From: Planctomycetota bacterium
Lineage (GTDB): Bacteria; Planctomycetota; Phycisphaerae; Sedimentisphaerales; Anaerobacaceae
Direction of reading: 5' to 3'
DNA: 42,851 nt
Assembly: GCA_020351025.1 (NCBI GenBank)
Contig: CP070728.1
Coordinates: 976,091-1,018,941, forward strand
The position numbers and the translations under genes are program-made. The notes below the pieces were generated by a model. It did no database searches. It was not told where the DNA came from and saw only the letters and a program-made list of their open reading frames with translations. Positions 4,658-42,851 of this stretch are shown here, piece by piece; position 1 is the first letter of the stretch, and the number at the start of each line of letters is the position of its first letter.

Positions 4658-4665
4658 ACTAATGC

Positions 4666-4672
4666 AAGGAGG
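4666..4672 (+). promoter_or_regulatory. Shine-Dalgarno AAGGAGG fixing a GTG start
   Basis: AAGGAGG at 4666-4672 lies four bases before the GTG at 4677. The only upstream ATG in frame (4662) would place this perfect ribosome-binding site inside the coding region, so GTG 4677 is the better start. Confidence 0.75.
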
Positions 4673-4676
4673 CGTC

Positions 4677-5873
4677 GTGGCAGTACCGGATTGGATTTGG
4701 TTTGTCTTTATCTTCGCATTTGGCTGTTGTATCGGCAGTTTCCTTAATGTTGTCGCTTATCGCCTACCCCGCGACCAGTCGCTGGTAAAACCACCTTCAG
4801 CTTGCCCCGCCTGTGGCAGGCATATTCGCTTCTATGACAACATACCGCTGATTTCATGGCTGCTTTTGGGCGCTAAGTGTCGGTACTGCAAAGCCCCAAT
4901 CTCACCACGTTATTTTGTCATTGAACTGCTGACGGGCCTGGTTTTCACCGCTCTATTTACCGTCTATTTTCGCACCAACTTACGTACCGGAATACCCTCG
5001 TTCCTCGATGGCGGCTGGTTCATTTATCTCATCTCGCTCATTTTGTCAGCTGCCCTAATTGCCGCTTCAGCGATTGACCTGCAACTTTGGGTTATCCCCG
5101 TATCAATTTGCTGGTTTGTCACCATAGTGGGATTGATTGGCTCGACACTCGGCTGCTATATAATCGACCCTGCTTTAATCCGCGGCTATGCGCTTTTACC
5201 AAGTACTTCGACCTTCCTTTTCAAAGAAGCTACCATCGCTTCCCTGGCCATCGGCGCGGCAATTGGATTGGTAATATCCTGGATACTCCTGGCAACGGGC
5301 TTAATCAAAAGAAGCTACGAATCCGAAAATATAAATCATAGCTCGGAACAGGCATTTGAGGCCTCGAGTGAGCCGCCATCCGCAAACCACGAATCACAAA
5401 TCAACCACCGCTTGGAAATGTCCAAGGAAATCATCTTTTTACTGCCAATCATCATCTGTTCACTCGCAGCTTTCTATATAGCCCGAAAAAATCCCACAAT
5501 ACACACTTGGTGGCTAAATCTTACGCAATATCCTGCAATTGCAGGACTTCTGGGCAGCCTGTGGGGCTACTTTATCGGCTGTGGTATCGTCTGGATAACC
5601 CGCATCCTTGGTACGCTGGGCTTTGGAAAAGAGGCTATGGGGCTCGGTGATGTGCATTTAATGGGTGCCGTCGGTGCGGTAGTAGGGCCGACCCCTGTCG
5701 TCGTCGCATTTTTCATCGCACCTTTCTTAGGATTAGGCTGGGCGGGCTTGCGAATGTTTGTCAAAAAAAGTCGACAGATTCCTTACGGTCCTTTCTTGTC
5801 TTTGGCTGTATTTACTGTTATGATTTTCCACGATAGGATTTTCAACCGTCTAATCGGATTGTTTTACCAATAA
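4677..5873 (+). CDS. pilD: Prepilin peptidase (type IV leader peptidase), long form
   Basis: This polytopic membrane aspartyl protease cleaves prepilin leaders and methylates the new N-terminus. The N-terminal domain starts FGCCIGSFLNVVAYRLPRD and has the two Cys pairs of the cytoplasmic zinc loop (C43/C46, C68/C71). The catalytic Asp residues are in SAIDLQLWVIP (near 134) and GLGDVHLMG (near 325). The protein is 398 aa, against about 260-290 for typical family members. The extra length is a hydrophilic linker between membrane segments, roughly residues 205-250, partly encoded by a 7-nt-period repeat. The start is GTG at 4677 (ATG 4662 is the alternative). A likely substrate in this window is the pseudopilin at 36781-37746. 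Confidence 0.93.
   Translation: MAVPDWIWFVFIFAFGCCIGSFLNVVAYRLPRDQSLVKPPSACPACGRHIRFYDNIPLISWLLLGAKCRYCKAPISPRYFVIELLTGLVFTALFTVYFRTNLRTGIPSFLDGGWFIYLISLILSAALIAASAIDLQLWVIPVSICWFVTIVGLIGSTLGCYIIDPALIRGYALLPSTSTFLFKEATIASLAIGAAIGLVISWILLATGLIKRSYESENINHSSEQAFEASSEPPSANHESQINHRLEMSKEIIFLLPIIICSLAAFYIARKNPTIHTWWLNLTQYPAIAGLLGSLWGYFIGCGIVWITRILGTLGFGKEAMGLGDVHLMGAVGAVVGPTPVVVAFFIAPFLGLGWAGLRMFVKKSRQIPYGPFLSLAVFTVMIFHDRIFNRLIGLFYQ
5378..5405 (+). repeat. 7-nt-period repeat inside the pilD linker
   Basis: ATCCGCA (5378), AACCACG (5385), AATCACA (5392) and AATCAAC (5399) are in 7-nt register. They encode part of the hydrophilic linker (SANHESQIN) that makes this prepilin peptidase longer than usual. 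Confidence 0.5.
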
Positions 5874-36723: not shown

Positions 36724-36789
36724 ATGACATTTAGAATGGAATTCTACAAAGATTGCAGTATTTACGCCAACTATAAGCTCTCAACGTAA
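36724..36789 (+). CDS. Possible 21-aa small ORF with a strong ribosome-binding site
   Basis: AAGGAG (36709-36714) lies nine bases before an ATG that opens 21 codons ending in TAA. The peptide starts MTFRMEFYKDC. It overlaps the 3' end of the minus-strand pseudopilin gene by nine bases and points away from trxB. It resembles no family I know. Apart from the ribosome-binding site there is no support, so it may be a chance or decayed gene start. Confidence 0.25.
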   Translation: MTFRMEFYKDCSIYANYKLST

Positions 36790-37746
36790 TGCATTCCGCG
36801 GTATGTAGAAAATCCCCGGTCCCAAGTCGCTCGGATATGGGATACTACCATCAGGTGTTTGTGATACCCTCATTGGCACTACTTCTGACGCCGTGTAACG
36901 CTCCACATGCCCATCCATGTAACCGGCGTGTAGTTCAATCTTAAGCACATCCAAATTGATTTCTTCATCCCCACCCCGGCGAGACCAATAAGCCGATGAA
37001 ACCCACGTCCCCGGTGTAACTCCCGCACCCCTAAATTTCTCACAGCTGCCGTAAGCCTTGCAGTCATCGTAAACCAGCCTGTTCCGCCAATGACCGTAAC
37101 CGAAATAATCACTTACAATCAAGCTGCTCTTTCCTAGCTCATGTCCCAAAGAGCCCGGCCCTTCAAATGGCACATCACGACCATCAAGGAAACCTATATA
37201 GTTCCAGTAAAAACAGTAGCTCCCCTTCGCCGGATCACGTACCGGTGGTGTCTCCGGATTATTCCACGCATCGCCGGCTTTCCAAACTTCCCGTAGATAT
37301 TTATATCTTTCTGGCGCATTCGGGCAAAACATAATGCTCGCCTCCCGTATATAGCTGCCCAAGTATGAACTCATCGACCGATGAAATCGGGGACTTCGTT
37401 GCTCATAAGTTGTCAGCATCGTCGGTTCTTGCCAATTCCAGTAATCACCCAACTGACCTACGGTCGCCACCGATTCCGGATAACGATAGTCGTTGTCGGC
37501 TGCAAAAGAGCTTAAACCCAGAACAACCTTTCGCTGGTTATCCATGCACCACACCGACCGAGCGTCTTGCCTGATTCCAATCGATGCCGGCACCATAATT
37601 GCCAGCCATACTGCAATTATACCCATTACCACCAAAAGTTCGACCAAACTAAATCCTCCGATATGCTTAGAGCTTGTAATATATTTATGAGCATTTAGGC
37701 TTAAAAGCCGCTCCCCCACGTAATGAGTACCTCCCGACCCCGACAT
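36781..37746 (-). CDS. Type II secretion-style pseudopilin
   Basis: This 321-aa protein has a long positively charged leader followed by G-FSLVELLVVMGIIAVWLAIM, the type III signal cleaved by prepilin peptidase at Gly31 before Phe32, with Glu at position 5 after the cut. The C-terminal part has no repeats and ends in a planctomycete-style pattern (ELHAGYMDGHVERY) like the G-x-x-D-G-H-V ending of the large pseudopilin families expanded in Planctomycetota. It starts 40 bases after the sigma factor gene and is probably in the same transcript. The cognate prepilin peptidase could be the one at 4677. A role in secretion or surface display of polymer-degrading enzymes is likely but unproven. Confidence 0.88.
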   Translation of the reverse strand: MSGSGGTHYVGERLLSLNAHKYITSSKHIGGFSLVELLVVMGIIAVWLAIMVPASIGIRQDARSVWCMDNQRKVVLGLSSFAADNDYRYPESVATVGQLGDYWNWQEPTMLTTYEQRSPRFHRSMSSYLGSYIREASIMFCPNAPERYKYLREVWKAGDAWNNPETPPVRDPAKGSYCFYWNYIGFLDGRDVPFEGPGSLGHELGKSSLIVSDYFGYGHWRNRLVYDDCKAYGSCEKFRGAGVTPGTWVSSAYWSRRGGDEEINLDVLKIELHAGYMDGHVERYTASEVVPMRVSQTPDGSIPYPSDLGPGIFYIPRNALR

Positions 37747-37786: not shown

Positions 37787-39688
37787 TTAATACAGACTAT
37801 CTTCTACTAACTTCAAAAGCCACAATACCCCTAATCCTTCTTCCCGCGGCGCCACAGAATCTTTCACCCTCGGCTCGGCAAATTCATCGCCCGCCTTCTC
37901 TACGTCCTGCAGGTATGAAAACCTCAGCTCTCCCCCTCGACGCCCACCTGCCGAAAATCCTATCTTCTCAATGACATCTCTCTTCATATCAATAGTATAG
38001 ATTAGCGTATTGTTCTCTTTAGTCAGAATAACTTCTGCCTTTCCGCTATCTTCCATATAGCTCGTCTCGAACCACATCTCTTCTTCTGCTGCATCCCGCC
38101 GTACCGTATCGATACTATGAAGCCCCATCCAGGGCCTTGTCAGCCCATTAAAGAAACTGTACGCAGGGTACGTTGGAAATCTTCCCCTCCTATAGTCATA
38201 GACGCGGCCACCATCGATGCCATCTATAATCTTTAATCCGTCACCAACTTTTAATTTCAACCAGGCAGACGCATCCTTACTGGCAGAATAGACAAAAGGT
38301 ATCCTCCCGACACCTGTTACCTCCTCTCCATTTATCTCACCCGAAATCCGAAAATACGTCCAGCCGCGCTTATGCATCGCATCACGATTGTCAACAACTT
38401 CAGCTCCTGTTGGCCAATCGTATCGAAAGTATTCCTCGTCAAGAACATTATAGTGATAAGCTGTCCGCAAATGGCTACGGTTTCCCTCCCGCTTGACAAT
38501 GGCCAGCAGACCATCACCGCCACTCGAAACATATTCCATCGCTTTAGTCCTGCCTTCGACCATCGAAAGAAAATCTCTCAATTTTGCCTTGTCGGTAGGC
38601 AGCCGCCGAACAGTCAGGTCACGGTCCCACATATGTGAGTTTTCGATATATATCGCGTTCTTCTGCTGGTCGAAGTAGTAGTTGGCAACGTCATTTCCCA
38701 AACGTCGGCAGCAAAATTGCCTCCCCTGCGAACTTAACTTTACCTGTCGTATCATCACCGGCCCTTTCGCCCCCTGCGGATAGTAATACCAATATTCCTC
38801 GATATCGGTCCCGGCCGACGTACTTACACTTACTTCTCTCGACAGCTTCTCACGAATCACTATCGCCGTCTTATCAGCTAAAGAAACCGTCTTCTCAACC
38901 CATGAAGGCGCTACAACACTACTCACACTCAACACTCCGACTGCTGTCAGAGCTAAAAGGCTTGTTCTGCTCGTTACAGTCCCCACCAGGCTCGCTGCCA
39001 CACCAACCCCTGCGCTGCCACCTGTTACCGTAACTTCCGCTGCTGCCGCTTCGCTCGGGGCGGTCATCTTCCCAAATAGGGCCAATACTGTCAGTAACGC
39101 CCCCTTACCATATCCCCGCCGTGAAAGACGCCTGTGCAATGCCTTTTTCGCTCGGTAGAACAGTACCCTAACGTTTAGCTCAGTACTACCCATCAATTCA
39201 GCTATTTGGTCATAACCCATATCCTCATAGCACCGCATCGAGAGAACTGCTCTATGTCGCGGCTTCAGATCCCACATCGCATTAAATATAATCTGCTTCA
39301 ACTCCTGACCGATAAGGACTCCGATACCTGTCCGCGCGAAACGTAGCTGCTCTGCTGACCAATCCCCCTCTGGCAGCTTCGATATTGACACCGTCCTGAA
39401 TCGTTGTGTCTTAAGGTAGTAACGGTTGATTCTGTTAAAAGCGATTTTACGGAGCCAAGGCCAAAATCGCTCCGCTTCCTCTAAATTACCTATACTTTTA
39501 ATCATCTCGAGCATACTTTCCTGTACTATATCCTGCGCTAAATCCTCCTCCAACACTATCCTATAAACGTATGAATACAACCTCCCCCGAACCAGTTCTG
39601 CCAAATCATCCAGGCTCTTTTTATTACCGACCTGGGCCTTTTCGACCAGTTCAATATAATCTCTGTCATTATTCATATGAGATACCAT
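37787..39688 (-). CDS. ECF sigma factor with membrane anchor and large C-terminal domain
   Basis: Residues about 5-180 (633-aa form) are an ECF sigma-70 factor: region 2 with DLAQDIVQESMLEMIKSI and WPWLRKIAFNRI, and region 4 with LKPRHRAVLSMRCYEDMGYDQIAELMG and a helix-turn-helix followed by LFYRAKKALHRRL. Ala/Val-rich hydrophobic segments (about 195-275, ALLTVLALFGKM and SLLALTAVGVLSVSSVVAP) follow and could cross the membrane. The last 350 residues are a hydrophilic, beta-rich domain with no family recognised. Such a protein could sense outside signals and regulate transcription itself. The start is uncertain: ATG 39688 or 39676, with GTG 39700 less likely. The pseudopilin gene follows after 40 bases, so it may be autoregulated with it. 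Confidence 0.85.
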   Translation of the reverse strand: MVSHMNNDRDYIELVEKAQVGNKKSLDDLAELVRGRLYSYVYRIVLEEDLAQDIVQESMLEMIKSIGNLEEAERFWPWLRKIAFNRINRYYLKTQRFRTVSISKLPEGDWSAEQLRFARTGIGVLIGQELKQIIFNAMWDLKPRHRAVLSMRCYEDMGYDQIAELMGSTELNVRVLFYRAKKALHRRLSRRGYGKGALLTVLALFGKMTAPSEAAAAEVTVTGGSAGVGVAASLVGTVTSRTSLLALTAVGVLSVSSVVAPSWVEKTVSLADKTAIVIREKLSREVSVSTSAGTDIEEYWYYYPQGAKGPVMIRQVKLSSQGRQFCCRRLGNDVANYYFDQQKNAIYIENSHMWDRDLTVRRLPTDKAKLRDFLSMVEGRTKAMEYVSSGGDGLLAIVKREGNRSHLRTAYHYNVLDEEYFRYDWPTGAEVVDNRDAMHKRGWTYFRISGEINGEEVTGVGRIPFVYSASKDASAWLKLKVGDGLKIIDGIDGGRVYDYRRGRFPTYPAYSFFNGLTRPWMGLHSIDTVRRDAAEEEMWFETSYMEDSGKAEVILTKENNTLIYTIDMKRDVIEKIGFSAGGRRGGELRFSYLQDVEKAGDEFAEPRVKDSVAPREEGLGVLWLLKLVEDSLY

Positions 39689-39720
39689 TACTATGAGCAC
39701 ACAAAGTGGTTATTTGTTAC

Positions 39721-39770
39721 ACTTTTTTTCCGAATTTTTCGCATTTTTTCCAATATTTCTCAAATTTCCG
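39721..39770. promoter_or_regulatory. Phased T-tracts upstream of the sigma factor gene (bent DNA candidate)
   Basis: Runs of T centre near 39726, 39737, 39746, 39757 and 39766, about 10-11 bases apart and each followed by C. Helically phased A/T tracts bend DNA. The stretch lies 33-82 bases upstream of the sigma gene start. The whole 39701-40007 gap holds only this, a GH2 terminator and a tail reading frame. No standard -35/-10 pair is clear. Confidence 0.5.
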
Positions 39771-39878: not shown

Positions 39879-39917
39879 ATAAAAAAAAGCGTGGCGGCTT
39901 GTATGACCGCCACGCTT
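39879..39917 (-). terminator. Intrinsic terminator of the GH2 gene
   Basis: An 11-bp perfect stem, AAGCGTGGCGG (39887-39897) and CCGCCACGCTT (39907-39917), has a 9-base loop. On the minus strand it is followed by a run of T (complement of A at 39881-39888). It is the strongest terminator in the window and lies 21 bases after the stop of the alternative tail frame at 39938. Confidence 0.9.
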
Positions 39918-39937: not shown

Positions 39938-40015
39938 TTAAGCAGCTCTTTTAGTAGCTGTCGCAACTTTCAGCATCGTCTTCGCCTTCGGCTCCGGCAG
40001 GGCAAGCTCAAGTAC
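39938..40015 (-). other. Out-of-frame coding tail after the GH2 stop
   Basis: One base out of frame with the GH2 reading, codons at 40015-39938 read VLELALPEPKAKT and end at TAA, about 25 codons in all. The tail starts within the last codons of the GH2 protein. It ends just before the terminator, as expected if it were the original C-terminus. The G-run at the junction (GGGCGG) is where one base gained or lost would join the two frames. It could also be chance. Confidence 0.4.
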
Positions 40016-42851
40016 CGCCCATCTCGGATAGAATATACATACGGTCAATATAAATCGTATCTATCTCCTTGTTGCCTGCAGTCCGGTCGGTATCCTTAAC
40101 CCGGATGTAAATCGTGCCGTTCGTGCCACTGGGCAGCTCATAACTCTGATATGTATTGTCGTCGCTGGTCTTGGTAACGGTGACCATATCTGTATAGCTC
40201 AAATCGTCCGTCGAATATGCAAAAATAAAGTCATCGCCTTCCTTGTTATAGCTGTGGTACGCCTCAACATAGAACGTCACTGTATCGCCACCCGTTACGT
40301 AGACCGTCCACTTGTGTTCCACATATCTGTAACGACCCCCAAGCAAACTAAGTGACTGAACCTCCTCAATAGATTCATAACTGTCGTCGCTGCCCCATGT
40401 ATCAGCAAAGATACCCATTACTGTACCAGATACTGCCTTATCGCTGGTAGCTACTCCAACTATGTCTCCCTCCGGCACGCTGCCTGAACTTGTAATCTCT
40501 ACACTCGCAGGACTCAATCCGATTGATGTCGCCGTTACGGGTATTGTTCCCGGCGTCAGTAAAGACTGGACAAGGACGGCAAGCATCCCGCCTTCAACAT
40601 CCAGCGGAGGCACGACATCAGGGTTGCCCCCTATCAATATTCCAGGCCCCGTTATGGATAGTTCCACTGTATTATTTGCATCAGGTACGACCGTCCCATT
40701 GGCATCAACTACTTTAATTACAACACGCGCAAAATCACTGCCGTCTGCCGTTATCGCCACAGGTTCTGCCTCTAATTGCAGACCAGCCGCCTGACCCGGT
40801 GTCCTTACCGTATGGGATGCTGCAACTTCGCCTCCTATTAACCCCTCTGCTCTTAGCTCGCCTGCCTCAAACAAAACGGAAAAGGTAAATGGCGGATGTT
40901 CAAGAGTCCTGATGTCCGGGCCTTGGACTCCCTGAGATACTTCATTGATAAAAAGTTCAATCTGCTCACAGTTGCTGTAGACCTTCACATCCACATTTAC
41001 CTTCGTCGGCAACGATGATAACCAGCGGTTGGCAATAAACACCATCGGCTCATTCGGGTCTCGCTGAGACTGATAAAAATAGTAGGCGTATTTAGGAATA
41101 CGGAACAAATCCACCACACCCTTATACATAACCCCGTCCTCCCACCTGTTTTGATAATCAAATGGCGTTTGATAGTCGAACATACACCAGCCATGACCGC
41201 CCGCAGCCCAGGCAAGCTCGTTAAGGGCCTCGATTCCATCTTCGTACGTCTCAGCAAAAGAAATGCTCTCCGCATCGCTATCGTAGCGATGGCTCGTAGT
41301 CTTCCAATCCGAATACTCACATTCGATAAAACCCTCTGTATTAGGGTCGGGATTGGAGCTATGACCGTAGTTCCGACCATAGATGTCGTAGATGTTATTG
41401 CTCGTGTCGTAGTTACGGGCTTGCGACGTGTACCGCGTCGGGTCCAGCGAATGCGCTATGTCATTGAGTATAGTTTCCAGCTCATCGTCTTTTTTGGCCT
41501 CGTTGATACCTGCGTAGATTATCACGCTCGGGTGGTTGCGGTTCTGTAGTATCATGTCTCTCATGTTTTGGGCACATCGTTGTCTCCACACAGGGTTAGC
41601 GGATGGCCCTTGCCACCCGGGTATCTCATCCCATAACAAAATCCCCAACTCATCCGCCGCATCATAAACCGATGGGTCATGAACATAATGTGATAACCTG
41701 ACAAAATTCATCCCACCATCTTTCATCATCTTCATATCACTATAATGCGCGGAATTCGGAACGGCGCTGCCGACAAATGGCCAGGTCTGATGACTGTTGG
41801 AACCGATAAGTTCCAGAGACTCGTCATTTAAATAAAAGCCCGTATCACGGTCGAACAAAATACTTCTTATCCCAATACGCGTCTCATAATCGTCTACAGA
41901 CGTTGCCCCATCCCGTACCGCTGTATAAACCATATAAAGATACGGATTCCACGGAGACCACAAATTAGGGTTACTTATATCTGTGCTCTGGCTGAATTCA
42001 TGGCTCGTACCGGCAGCAATTGATGCCAAACTCTGCATCGTCGCAACTACCTCATTGCTCGAATCCGCTATTCTCGTAACAACTGTACAATCCTTCGCCG
42101 TGTCCGATGCGTTATGTACCCATGTCCTCACATTAACCGTTGCCGAACTCGACGATACGCTCGGATAAGTAACAAACGTCCCACCACCCGTATCACCTGC
42201 ATAAACAGCATCCTGAATGTGAAGCTCGTCTGTAATTACTAAGTAAACATCTCTGTAAAGACCGCCAAATAGGGCAAAGTCGGGCTTGCTCGTACTGATA
42301 CCTTCGGGTGGAACCTCTTCCTGATAAGTATTATCAACTTTAACCGCTATCACATTCTCCGAACCACCTAAAACGACACTGTCGGTAATATCAAAGGCAA
42401 AAGGTGTATAACCCCCGTAGTGCGTACCCAAATGGTTACCGTTCACCCAGACATCCGTCACCGTCATAGCGCCCTCAAACTCTATATACACCCTCCTGCC
42501 GGCATACTCCGAGCCAACTGTAAAATGTTTACGGTACCATCCTATCCCTCGATAGAACGCATCGTACACCGAAGGAAAATGATACGGAACCCACTCCATC
42601 GTATGCGGTACGTGTGCCTCCTGCCACCCGGAATCATCGAAAGAAGGACTCTCAGCGTCCGCTACATCACCTTTGTAAAACCTCCAGCCGATATTGAAGT
42701 TTAGGGTGACTCTGTGTGTATCCTCCGGCACATACTGAGCCGCCTCAACCTCTATTGCCTCTTCAACTGCTGTCGTCGCCTCTGTAATTGCATCTTCACT
42801 CTGAGCTGCCGTCGCCAATGCGGCAATAAATAAAAATCCAATAATCAAAAT
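40008..42851 (-). CDS. Glycoside hydrolase family 2 (beta-galactosidase-like), exported, 5' partial
   Basis: At least 946 aa, running to the window edge. The only in-frame start is a TTG at 42848, so the true N-terminus is probably cut off. A hydrophobic signal peptide (IIGFLFIAALATAAQS) leads into a GH2 jelly-roll (about 45-205), immunoglobulin-like (about 210-325) and TIM-barrel core (about 330-610). The catalytic acid/base is probably Glu450 in YAGINEA, and the nucleophile Glu511 in IECEYSDW. Beta-rich domains follow: a GH2 C-terminal domain (about 625-800) and a sandwich (about 805-946) with many Tyr/Asp residues. It likely cuts beta-linked sugars in extracellular polysaccharide. A C-terminal tail may be lost by frameshift. 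Confidence 0.92.
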   Translation of the reverse strand: MLIIGFLFIAALATAAQSEDAITEATTAVEEAIEVEAAQYVPEDTHRVTLNFNIGWRFYKGDVADAESPSFDDSGWQEAHVPHTMEWVPYHFPSVYDAFYRGIGWYRKHFTVGSEYAGRRVYIEFEGAMTVTDVWVNGNHLGTHYGGYTPFAFDITDSVVLGGSENVIAVKVDNTYQEEVPPEGISTSKPDFALFGGLYRDVYLVITDELHIQDAVYAGDTGGGTFVTYPSVSSSSATVNVRTWVHNASDTAKDCTVVTRIADSSNEVVATMQSLASIAAGTSHEFSQSTDISNPNLWSPWNPYLYMVYTAVRDGATSVDDYETRIGIRSILFDRDTGFYLNDESLELIGSNSHQTWPFVGSAVPNSAHYSDMKMMKDGGMNFVRLSHYVHDPSVYDAADELGILLWDEIPGWQGPSANPVWRQRCAQNMRDMILQNRNHPSVIIYAGINEAKKDDELETILNDIAHSLDPTRYTSQARNYDTSNNIYDIYGRNYGHSSNPDPNTEGFIECEYSDWKTTSHRYDSDAESISFAETYEDGIEALNELAWAAGGHGWCMFDYQTPFDYQNRWEDGVMYKGVVDLFRIPKYAYYFYQSQRDPNEPMVFIANRWLSSLPTKVNVDVKVYSNCEQIELFINEVSQGVQGPDIRTLEHPPFTFSVLFEAGELRAEGLIGGEVAASHTVRTPGQAAGLQLEAEPVAITADGSDFARVVIKVVDANGTVVPDANNTVELSITGPGILIGGNPDVVPPLDVEGGMLAVLVQSLLTPGTIPVTATSIGLSPASVEITSSGSVPEGDIVGVATSDKAVSGTVMGIFADTWGSDDSYESIEEVQSLSLLGGRYRYVEHKWTVYVTGGDTVTFYVEAYHSYNKEGDDFIFAYSTDDLSYTDMVTVTKTSDDNTYQSYELPSGTNGTIYIRVKDTDRTAGNKEIDTIYIDRMYILSEMGGT

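Follow-up and report, generated by a model that had tools for sequence, protein, structure and literature searches.

Among the closest described counterparts of the protein studied here are the Sigma-E/RseA/RseB and AlgU/MucA/MucB systems, in which an ECF sigma factor is controlled across the membrane with a LolA-like periplasmic regulator and the task is divided among three proteins. Domains fused to ECF sigma factors are also known. For example, SnoaL-like domains fused to ECF41 modulate the sigma domain directly, IutY of Pseudomonas putida carries a FecR-type part, and WD40 repeats occur in planctomycete ECFs of a group that we take to be ECF01-Gob. Among pseudopilins, the prepilin-type proteins of the Verru_Chthon cassettes (TIGR02596/TIGR02599) are found in multi-copy cassettes in PVC bacteria, and we know of no sigma factor in these cassettes. 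From the periplasm, RseB regulates sigma-E and MucB regulates AlgU, and lipids are sensed by the hydrophobic cavity of MucB (PMC7400510, in part). Many ECFs have C-terminal extensions, and these are spread over the ECF groups (PMC8103513, in part). IutY (ECF243) is a sigma factor fused to a membrane-bound regulator and is cut by Prc/RseP in an iron cell-surface signalling system, and members of ECF48/52/53, e.g. SCO4117 from Streptomyces coelicolor, have C-terminal extensions of up to 400 residues with a zinc-finger (ZAS) module, transmembrane helices that come after this module, and an outside domain, to which SCO4117 adds a carbohydrate-binding domain (PMC8999054, in part). The WD40-repeat ECFs, like the protein described here, belong to Planctomycetes and possess a lineage-specific added C-terminal domain (PMC8567305, in part). 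As a precedent for pilin sensing, PilS-PilR comes nearest; there, a membrane sensor reads the pilin PilA and controls pilin expression (PMC6058289, in part). PilS, however, is a histidine kinase with six transmembrane segments and acts through sigma-54, whereas in our case the sigma factor would act in one step, a link that we infer.

Comparison with these systems showed both likeness and difference. The sigma factor, the anchor and the LolA-like regulator are separate proteins in the Sigma-E and AlgU systems; here, the sigma factor, the probable anchor and a putatively LolA-like domain lie in one chain, and an RseA-like anti-sigma domain was not found in the window protein with Pfam. FecR and zinc-finger families gave no Pfam match in it at E 1. 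Carbohydrate-binding and WD40 families were likewise unmatched in Pfam, and instead of WD40 repeats there are a LolA-like fold in the model and a link to a pseudopilin. The words LolA, RseB and pilin are absent from the main text of PMC8999054, and a term search of a paper on genomes of the class (PMC11266412) found neither "sigma" nor "pilin". In the collection of papers searched, none joined an ECF sigma factor, a pseudopilin and Planctomycetes, nor a sigma factor, Phycisphaerae and a pseudopilin. Membrane-anchored ECFs are known already; against the descriptions covered here, this sensor and its cassette look new.

The window, i.e., the whole stretch of 42,851 nucleotides that was analyzed, lies on a single 2.27-Mb contig. 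It contains the sigma-linker-CTD gene at 37787-39676 on the minus strand, as delimited by the ORF scan, Pfam and the starts of homologues in alignment A1. The longest reading of the ORF (37787-39700, minus) encodes 637 residues, and its numbering is used below for sigma regions 2 and 4. ATG 39676, where the homologues begin, is the likely start and gives a protein of 629 residues; the alternatives are ATG 39688, which was the end point of the initial annotation and directly abuts a promoter-like motif, and GTG 39700. Sigma-70 region 2 (39401-39598, minus; residues 35-100; PF04542, E 7.7e-10, 38.9 bits with a cut-off of 24) and region 4 (39137-39268, minus; residues 145-188; PF08281, r4_2, E 2.6e-9, 37 bits with a cut-off of 25.7) were identified. 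The Pfam models r2, r4_2 and r4 all scored above cut-off, which marks the protein as an ECF (group IV) sigma-70 factor, and regions r3 and r1.1 gave no Pfam match at E 1. The NCBIfam sigma70-ECF model matched with 73.7 bits (cut-off 42.9), and the sigma part of the structural model matched AlgU, SigE and SigW in Foldseek. Full-length homologues with 32-49% identity to the window protein (23-row alignment) are present in other genera, and its architecture is therefore no chance event.

The C-terminal domain (CTD; 37862-38809, minus; residues 298-613) comprises ~320 residues. It had been described as belonging to no known family, and this holds at the level of sequence families: the window protein had no Pfam (E 0.1) or NCBIfam match in this part, and its sequence had no match in the PDB at E 1. 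When 23 CTDs were searched with Pfam at E 0.1, three chance-level hits were obtained, none of them to the MucB_RseB or LolA families. The AlphaFold model of the CTD alone, however, had a pLDDT of 89.5 and a pTM of 0.89 and displayed a recognizable fold; in the full-length model, the CTD was also confident, and the linker was of low confidence. The top Foldseek match was LolA, whose fold has lid helices on an open half-barrel of antiparallel beta strands, in both of two runs (E 6.2e-5 and 1.8e-5), with a probability of 1.00 and a TM-score by target of 0.45 in the second. RseB (E 2.4e-3) and MucB (E 4.5e-3) were found in the first run and were not among the best 50 matches listed in the second, in which the unrelated AttH and Fsa2/pericyclase-type folds had good E-values, probabilities of at most 0.66 and TM-scores below 0.2. 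In VIA, LolA matched with Z 8-9 and 4-5 Å over about 130-155 residues at about 10% identity, a Z only just above the values that unrelated models often give; RseB reached Z 8.2 (150 residues, 4.5 Å) and MucB 7.4. These values are modest, and similar ones were obtained for an uncharacterized Thermus protein (9.1), for VioE (9.0) and for ependymins (8.3 at most). As the CTD model resembles LolA/RseB/MucB and the sigma part AlgU/SigE/SigW, a fold that elsewhere serves to regulate ECF sigma factors is, as far as the models go, probably fused here to an ECF sigma factor.

Between the sigma regions and the CTD lies a hydrophobic linker (38933-39127, minus; residues 192-256) that is strikingly conserved in the column conservation of 65 homologues. 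It includes LFGKMTAPSEAAAA, with Ala 218 (95%) and Ala 220 (93%), and the start of a likely single transmembrane segment predicted from hydrophobicity (38906-38968, minus; residues 245-265). The best 19-residue window of the window protein, residues 246-264, has a Kyte-Doolittle value of 1.93, which is borderline for a transmembrane segment, and the two segments before it are weaker in this protein. Among the homologues, the best segment of this region scored at least 1.6, i.e., transmembrane-like, in 58 of 65. Net charge was higher in the N-flank than in the C-flank (N-inside) in 44 of the 65, with no difference in 13 and the reverse in 8; the K/R count alone, higher in the N-flank in 23, equal in 12 and lower in 30, had no N-inside preference. 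A single-transmembrane topology with the CTD outside is likely in the linker family on this sequence evidence. We also considered that the linker is a re-entrant or hairpin anchor with two inserted segments, so that the CTD would be cytoplasmic and would modulate the sigma domain directly in the manner of ECF41. The linker indeed has three hydrophobic stretches, of which segment B reaches 1.8-1.9 in three homologues of the 23-row set, the charge asymmetry is modest, and VioE, with the same fold score as LolA, is a cytoplasmic enzyme. However, the CTD-adjoining segment surpasses the other two in hydrophobicity in 19 of 23 homologues and has a value of at least 1.5 in 22 of 23. In addition, LolA/RseB relatives are extracytoplasmic, and neither SnoaL nor TPR gave a Pfam hit at E 1, so that the ECF41-like type named beforehand as the counter-case gave way to a LolA-like model. 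We consider the hairpin arrangement quite unlikely.

The initial annotation, which proposed sigma regions followed by hydrophobic segments, is thus borne out by Pfam r2 and r4_2, hydrophobicity and the homologues. The architecture, the fold and the conservation lend good support to its idea of a single polypeptide that connects a probable extracytoplasmic sensor with transcription. The observation was real, and there is more to it than the annotation had described; missed were the multi-copy cassettes with their secreted beta-helix/LamG cargo, the promoter motif and the likeness of the CTD fold to LolA/RseB. Within the linker, residues 202-221 (39038-39097) consist of a positive start, a short hydrophobic stretch and the nearly invariant Ala-X-Ala. 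By the rule for signal-peptidase-type sites, this segment resembles an internal signal peptide, and its Ala-X-Ala could be a signal-peptidase-like cleavage site and a possible point of release.

A scan of named genomes confirmed 155 relatives, of which the best 80 were kept as 79 loci; the records carry the names Planctomycetota, Phycisphaerae, Phycisphaerales or Sedimentisphaerales in their titles. The CTD was present in 29 of the 60 relatives searched, with up to five copies per genome, and in 3 of 294 genomes across the phylum, namely that of the window and two others from this order. Among these best 80 of the 155 relatives, CTD, sigma part and linker were in one ORF in 77 of the 80 CTD ORFs. 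Of three apparent exceptions to the fusion, the gene in L141 is cut by the contig end, and that in L094 runs into a masked stretch. In the third, L075, the CTD stands alone and the upstream sigma part is missing. The contig that carries one of the sigma-CTD genes (L127; JAFGRF010000298.1) is short and bears the label candidate division WOR-3, and it is likely misbinned Planctomycetota DNA. Proteins of about 280-316 residues with sigma part and linker and no CTD were also observed. One is a paralogue in the genome G001 (L208:7040-7990), which is 59% identical to the window protein over sigma and linker, and a second is encoded in the window's genome, G000 (L073:7004-7852; G000:C1:2199581).

The gene for the cognate pseudopilin (36781-37746, minus; 321 residues) begins 40 bp 3' of the sigma gene. 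It matched PF07963 N_methyl (E 6.1e-6, 26 bits with a cut-off of 21.2) and TIGR02532 (17.6, cut-off 16.3), as is expected of type II/IV pseudopilins with their prepilin cleavage motif and hydrophobic N-terminal helix, and the Verru_Chthon NCBIfam models gave chance-level scores with it (E 0.04 and 0.11). A terminator-like hairpin with 12 pairs and a T run (39887-39917, minus) separates the cassette from an upstream gene, and the same scan found no terminator-like site between the sigma gene and the pseudopilin; the two are therefore probably one transcript from the sigma gene's own promoter. The upstream gene (40008-42851), which has the same orientation and runs off the window end, encodes a GH2 beta-galactosidase-like protein that contains DUF4982 among further domains; this strong terminator-like site excluded it from the cassette. 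In the homologous loci, the recurring order is the sigma-CTD gene, zero to two large secreted beta-helix/LamG genes, and then one pseudopilin subfamily with 42-56% identity to the window's pseudopilin (alignment A3). The middle gene is absent from the window cassette, as it is in L069, L071, L072, L099 and L106. The middle proteins are large and beta-helix or lectin-like, many with signal-peptide-like starts by eye and by a crude count of hydrophobic runs. Pfam scans of 48 of the 90 large downstream ORFs gave Disaggr_assoc in 35, Beta_helix in 31, NosD in 24 and Laminin_G_3 in 8.

When a downstream pseudopilin was counted if it came before the first opposite ORF of at least 150 residues, it was found 3' of 32 of the 53 sigma-CTD genes for which 5 kb or more of sequence was available (two by weak scores) and of 2 of the 24 with less. 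A search of 60 genomes, with up to 38 candidates scored per genome, yielded 43 strong pseudopilin hits (>150 bits; the next had 109) in 23 genomes. All 23 genomes have the CTD, and none of the 31 CTD-less genomes had such a hit (Fisher p 2e-11). With the same number of candidates per genome, 29 of the 43 lay, in the same orientation, within 8 kb 3' of a CTD, and 14 were unlinked, counts that are partly built in because the profile was made from cassette members. The pseudopilin had been named as a likely target of the sigma factor, and the conserved cassette, the genome co-occurrence and the co-variation described below strongly support, at the sequence level, that the sigma-CTD protein is tied to it; the pseudopilin may be both target and sensed partner. 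In G001, one pseudopilin of the cassette subfamily stands in frame behind a protein that is HEAT-repeat-like by eye, across a masked stretch (L177:5995-9678), and these are probably two genes joined by the mask.

Directly 5' of the sigma-CTD gene, at 39689-39721 (minus; G000:C1:1015779-1015811), is the promoter-like motif TGTAAC-N16-TGCTCATAGTA. Upstream of the homologues, a two-part motif was found that consists of CGTTAC, CGTCA or TGTAAC, about 16 bases, and then GGCACTTA, GAACTTA or TGCWCATAGTA. The search used 72 upstream regions, those of the window and of 71 of 77 homologues, the others being too short or containing N. The log-likelihood of the motif was 473 vs. 79-93 in five mononucleotide shuffles; the count of occupied regions (61 of 72 vs. 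55-61 in shuffles) was uninformative and was set aside in favor of the likelihood. In the 79 loci, 42 of 53 sites above 14 bits lay at most 300 bp 5' of a sigma-CTD gene, with 7 sites in all in shuffled loci, the matrix having been trained on the same upstream regions in which these sites were counted. Exact CGTTAC-type sites with N16 numbered 16 in 8 of the 60 genomes, all eight with the CTD, and five of the 16 were at sigma-CTD genes; the reversed control gave 0. The same pattern with N18 gave three hits, none at a CTD hit, and five in its reversed control. With up to two mismatches, the window-type motif had 11 sites in five genomes, four of them with the CTD, and the control gave 1.

Sites away from the cassettes point to candidate members of a regulon. 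In the window's genome, a perfect match was found 271 bp 5' of a 670-residue LamG protein and a 3-mismatch site 92 bp 5' of a 566-residue LamG protein; each of these proteins begins with a signal-peptide-like stretch. A third non-sigma site (2 mismatches) had no clear target, and the control gave 1. Two more 3-mismatch sites, C1:281927 and C1:839613, were left out of the target count, the reversed control giving 2. Besides LamG, the two LamG candidates (L165:3718-5730 and L166:4209-5909) have a common charged, probably helical module of ~85 residues with 42% identity. The single-contig genome G001, which is 84% complete, has five window-type sites: one 10 bp 5' of the sigma-linker paralogue without CTD, one each 5' of a beta-helix protein (189 bp) and an RCC1 protein (120 bp), one 267 bp 5' of a protein that is beta-helix-like by eye (partly masked, no Pfam hit), and one without a target. 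Two non-CTD CGTTAC sites in G001 precede a beta-helix and a LamG protein. Together, seven of the nine non-sigma sites in these two genomes lie 92-271 bp 5' of likely secreted proteins of the LamG, beta-helix or RCC1 kind, whose N-termini resemble signal peptides. Since the sigma-linker gene of G001 keeps the window-type motif and the genome keeps its apparent regulon, the sensor domain seemingly can be lost. In five other genomes, a crude ORF scan found no secreted beta-helix or LamG gene directly 3' of nine non-sigma CGTTAC sites, two of which are less than 0.8 kb from a contig end. One of the nine, an exact CGTTAC-N16-GGCACTTA site in G007, is 87 bp 5' of gspC-gspD (L174:841-1950), a hint that the regulon could include this operon for type II secretion; the motif site in G015 is inside a reading frame.

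Co-variation was analyzed in 45 hand-picked cassettes, with one record per genome where two collections overlapped; loci in which a gene is cut were excluded, as were L069, L071 and L072, whose pseudopilins are divergent. The promoter followed the sigma domain (r 0.62) rather than the CTD (r 0.28), with partial correlations of 0.58 vs. -0.10 (35 of the 45 had a usable motif). Similarly, among the 55 of 72 regions that could be classified, the promoter subtype was common to sigma-domain nearest neighbors in 55 of 55 cases and to CTD neighbors in 50 of 55, with at most 33 in shuffles. These results bear on the notion that the motif is an operator or a lineage housekeeping promoter that does not belong to this sigma factor, its co-location being incidental. 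That notion would accommodate the sites away from cassettes that lack an obvious secreted gene, as well as the one 2-mismatch window-type site in the CTD-less genome G036. It does not fit the confinement of exact CGTTAC-type sites to 8 of the 29 CTD genomes, with none in the reversed control, or a promoter subtype that follows sigma and not the CTD, and we regard it as unlikely.

At the other end of the protein, the CTD and the pseudopilin correlated with r 0.82, compared with 0.64 for the sigma domain and the CTD of the same chain (bootstrap difference 0.08-0.29). When pseudopilins were exchanged at random between the cassettes within each genome (25 cassettes in 10 genomes), none of 5000 shuffles reached the observed r for the CTD, and the fraction for sigma was 0.0006. 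Earlier runs differed in r by at most 0.02 from that with clean domain borders in the 45 cassettes, and an earlier run with 33 cassettes gave 0.49, 0.52 and 0.80. The nearest-neighbor test did not separate the two domains in following the pseudopilin (CTD 24 and sigma 23 of 45; own partner picked in 19 vs. 18 of 25). This similarity would be expected if the cassette genes were merely co-inherited, so that co-variation and co-occurrence reflected linkage and descent with no functional contact. Linkage, however, predicts that sigma and CTD are at least as tightly correlated as CTD and pseudopilin, which is the opposite of the order observed, and co-inheritance by itself seems rather unlikely. 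Another alternative is that the CTD is an RseB/MucB-like sensor of lipids or lipoproteins in envelope stress, with the pseudopilin and the secreted proteins as its stress regulon and the pseudopilin not sensed. The match of the CTD model to LolA/RseB/MucB and the lipid-sensing cavity of MucB (PMC7400510, in part) are in line with this proposal. A general stress signal is nevertheless hard to reconcile with several cassettes of different promoter types in one genome, e.g. the VRUL loci, and with a CTD whose divergence follows the pseudopilin of its own cassette even within a genome; a stress sensor is possible in our view, and doubtful. Our reading of the co-variation is that the sigma domain would recognize its own promoter and the CTD would be functionally tied to its own pseudopilin.

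Taken together, we favor, with some confidence, a one-chain, autoregulated transmembrane signalling sigma factor that controls its pseudopilin and secreted surface proteins. The architecture, the model fold, the cassette, the motif, the regulon candidates and the co-variation support this reading. The N-terminal ECF sigma domain would reside in the cytoplasm, held by the conserved hydrophobic linker as inner-membrane anchor, and the LolA/RseB-like domain in the periplasm would meet or lose a ligand, most likely the cognate pseudopilin or a lipid or export intermediate linked to it. The sigma domain would then be freed or unblocked, probably via intramembrane proteolysis, and would transcribe from the TGTAAC/CGTTAC/CGTCA-type promoter. 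This promoter would drive its own operon, consisting of the sigma gene, often a gene for a large secreted beta-helix/LamG protein, and the pseudopilin gene, in addition to scattered genes of secreted proteins, and the pseudopilin may serve the export or display of the cargo. Within this scheme, we infer the topology, the autoregulation, the ligand, the release mechanism and the role of the pseudopilin in cargo export or display.

More tentatively, each cassette may be an orthogonal secretion plug-in, in which the LolA-like CTD would directly read how much of its own pseudopilin is in stock or how far it is assembled, and the sigma domain would drive, from a private promoter type, the pseudopilin together with private large secreted surface proteins, so that several parallel channels would run in one cell. 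If the favored reading of a one-chain signalling sigma factor is true, an ECF sigma factor has an RseB/LolA-like sensor in the same chain, and a three-protein pathway has collapsed into one. For the expanded pseudopilins and the secreted beta-helix/LamG proteins of Planctomycetota, it would also offer a way into both regulation and function. Because the sigma-promoter and CTD-pseudopilin co-variation are separate, sensing and target specificity become testable by domain swaps between cassettes, and the several mutually distinct-looking sigma-promoter pairs could be useful tools.

Outside the cassette, the window encodes a prepilin-peptidase-like protein at 4662-5873, of the GspO/PilD type by eye, and six secretin-domain matches were obtained in the window's genome.
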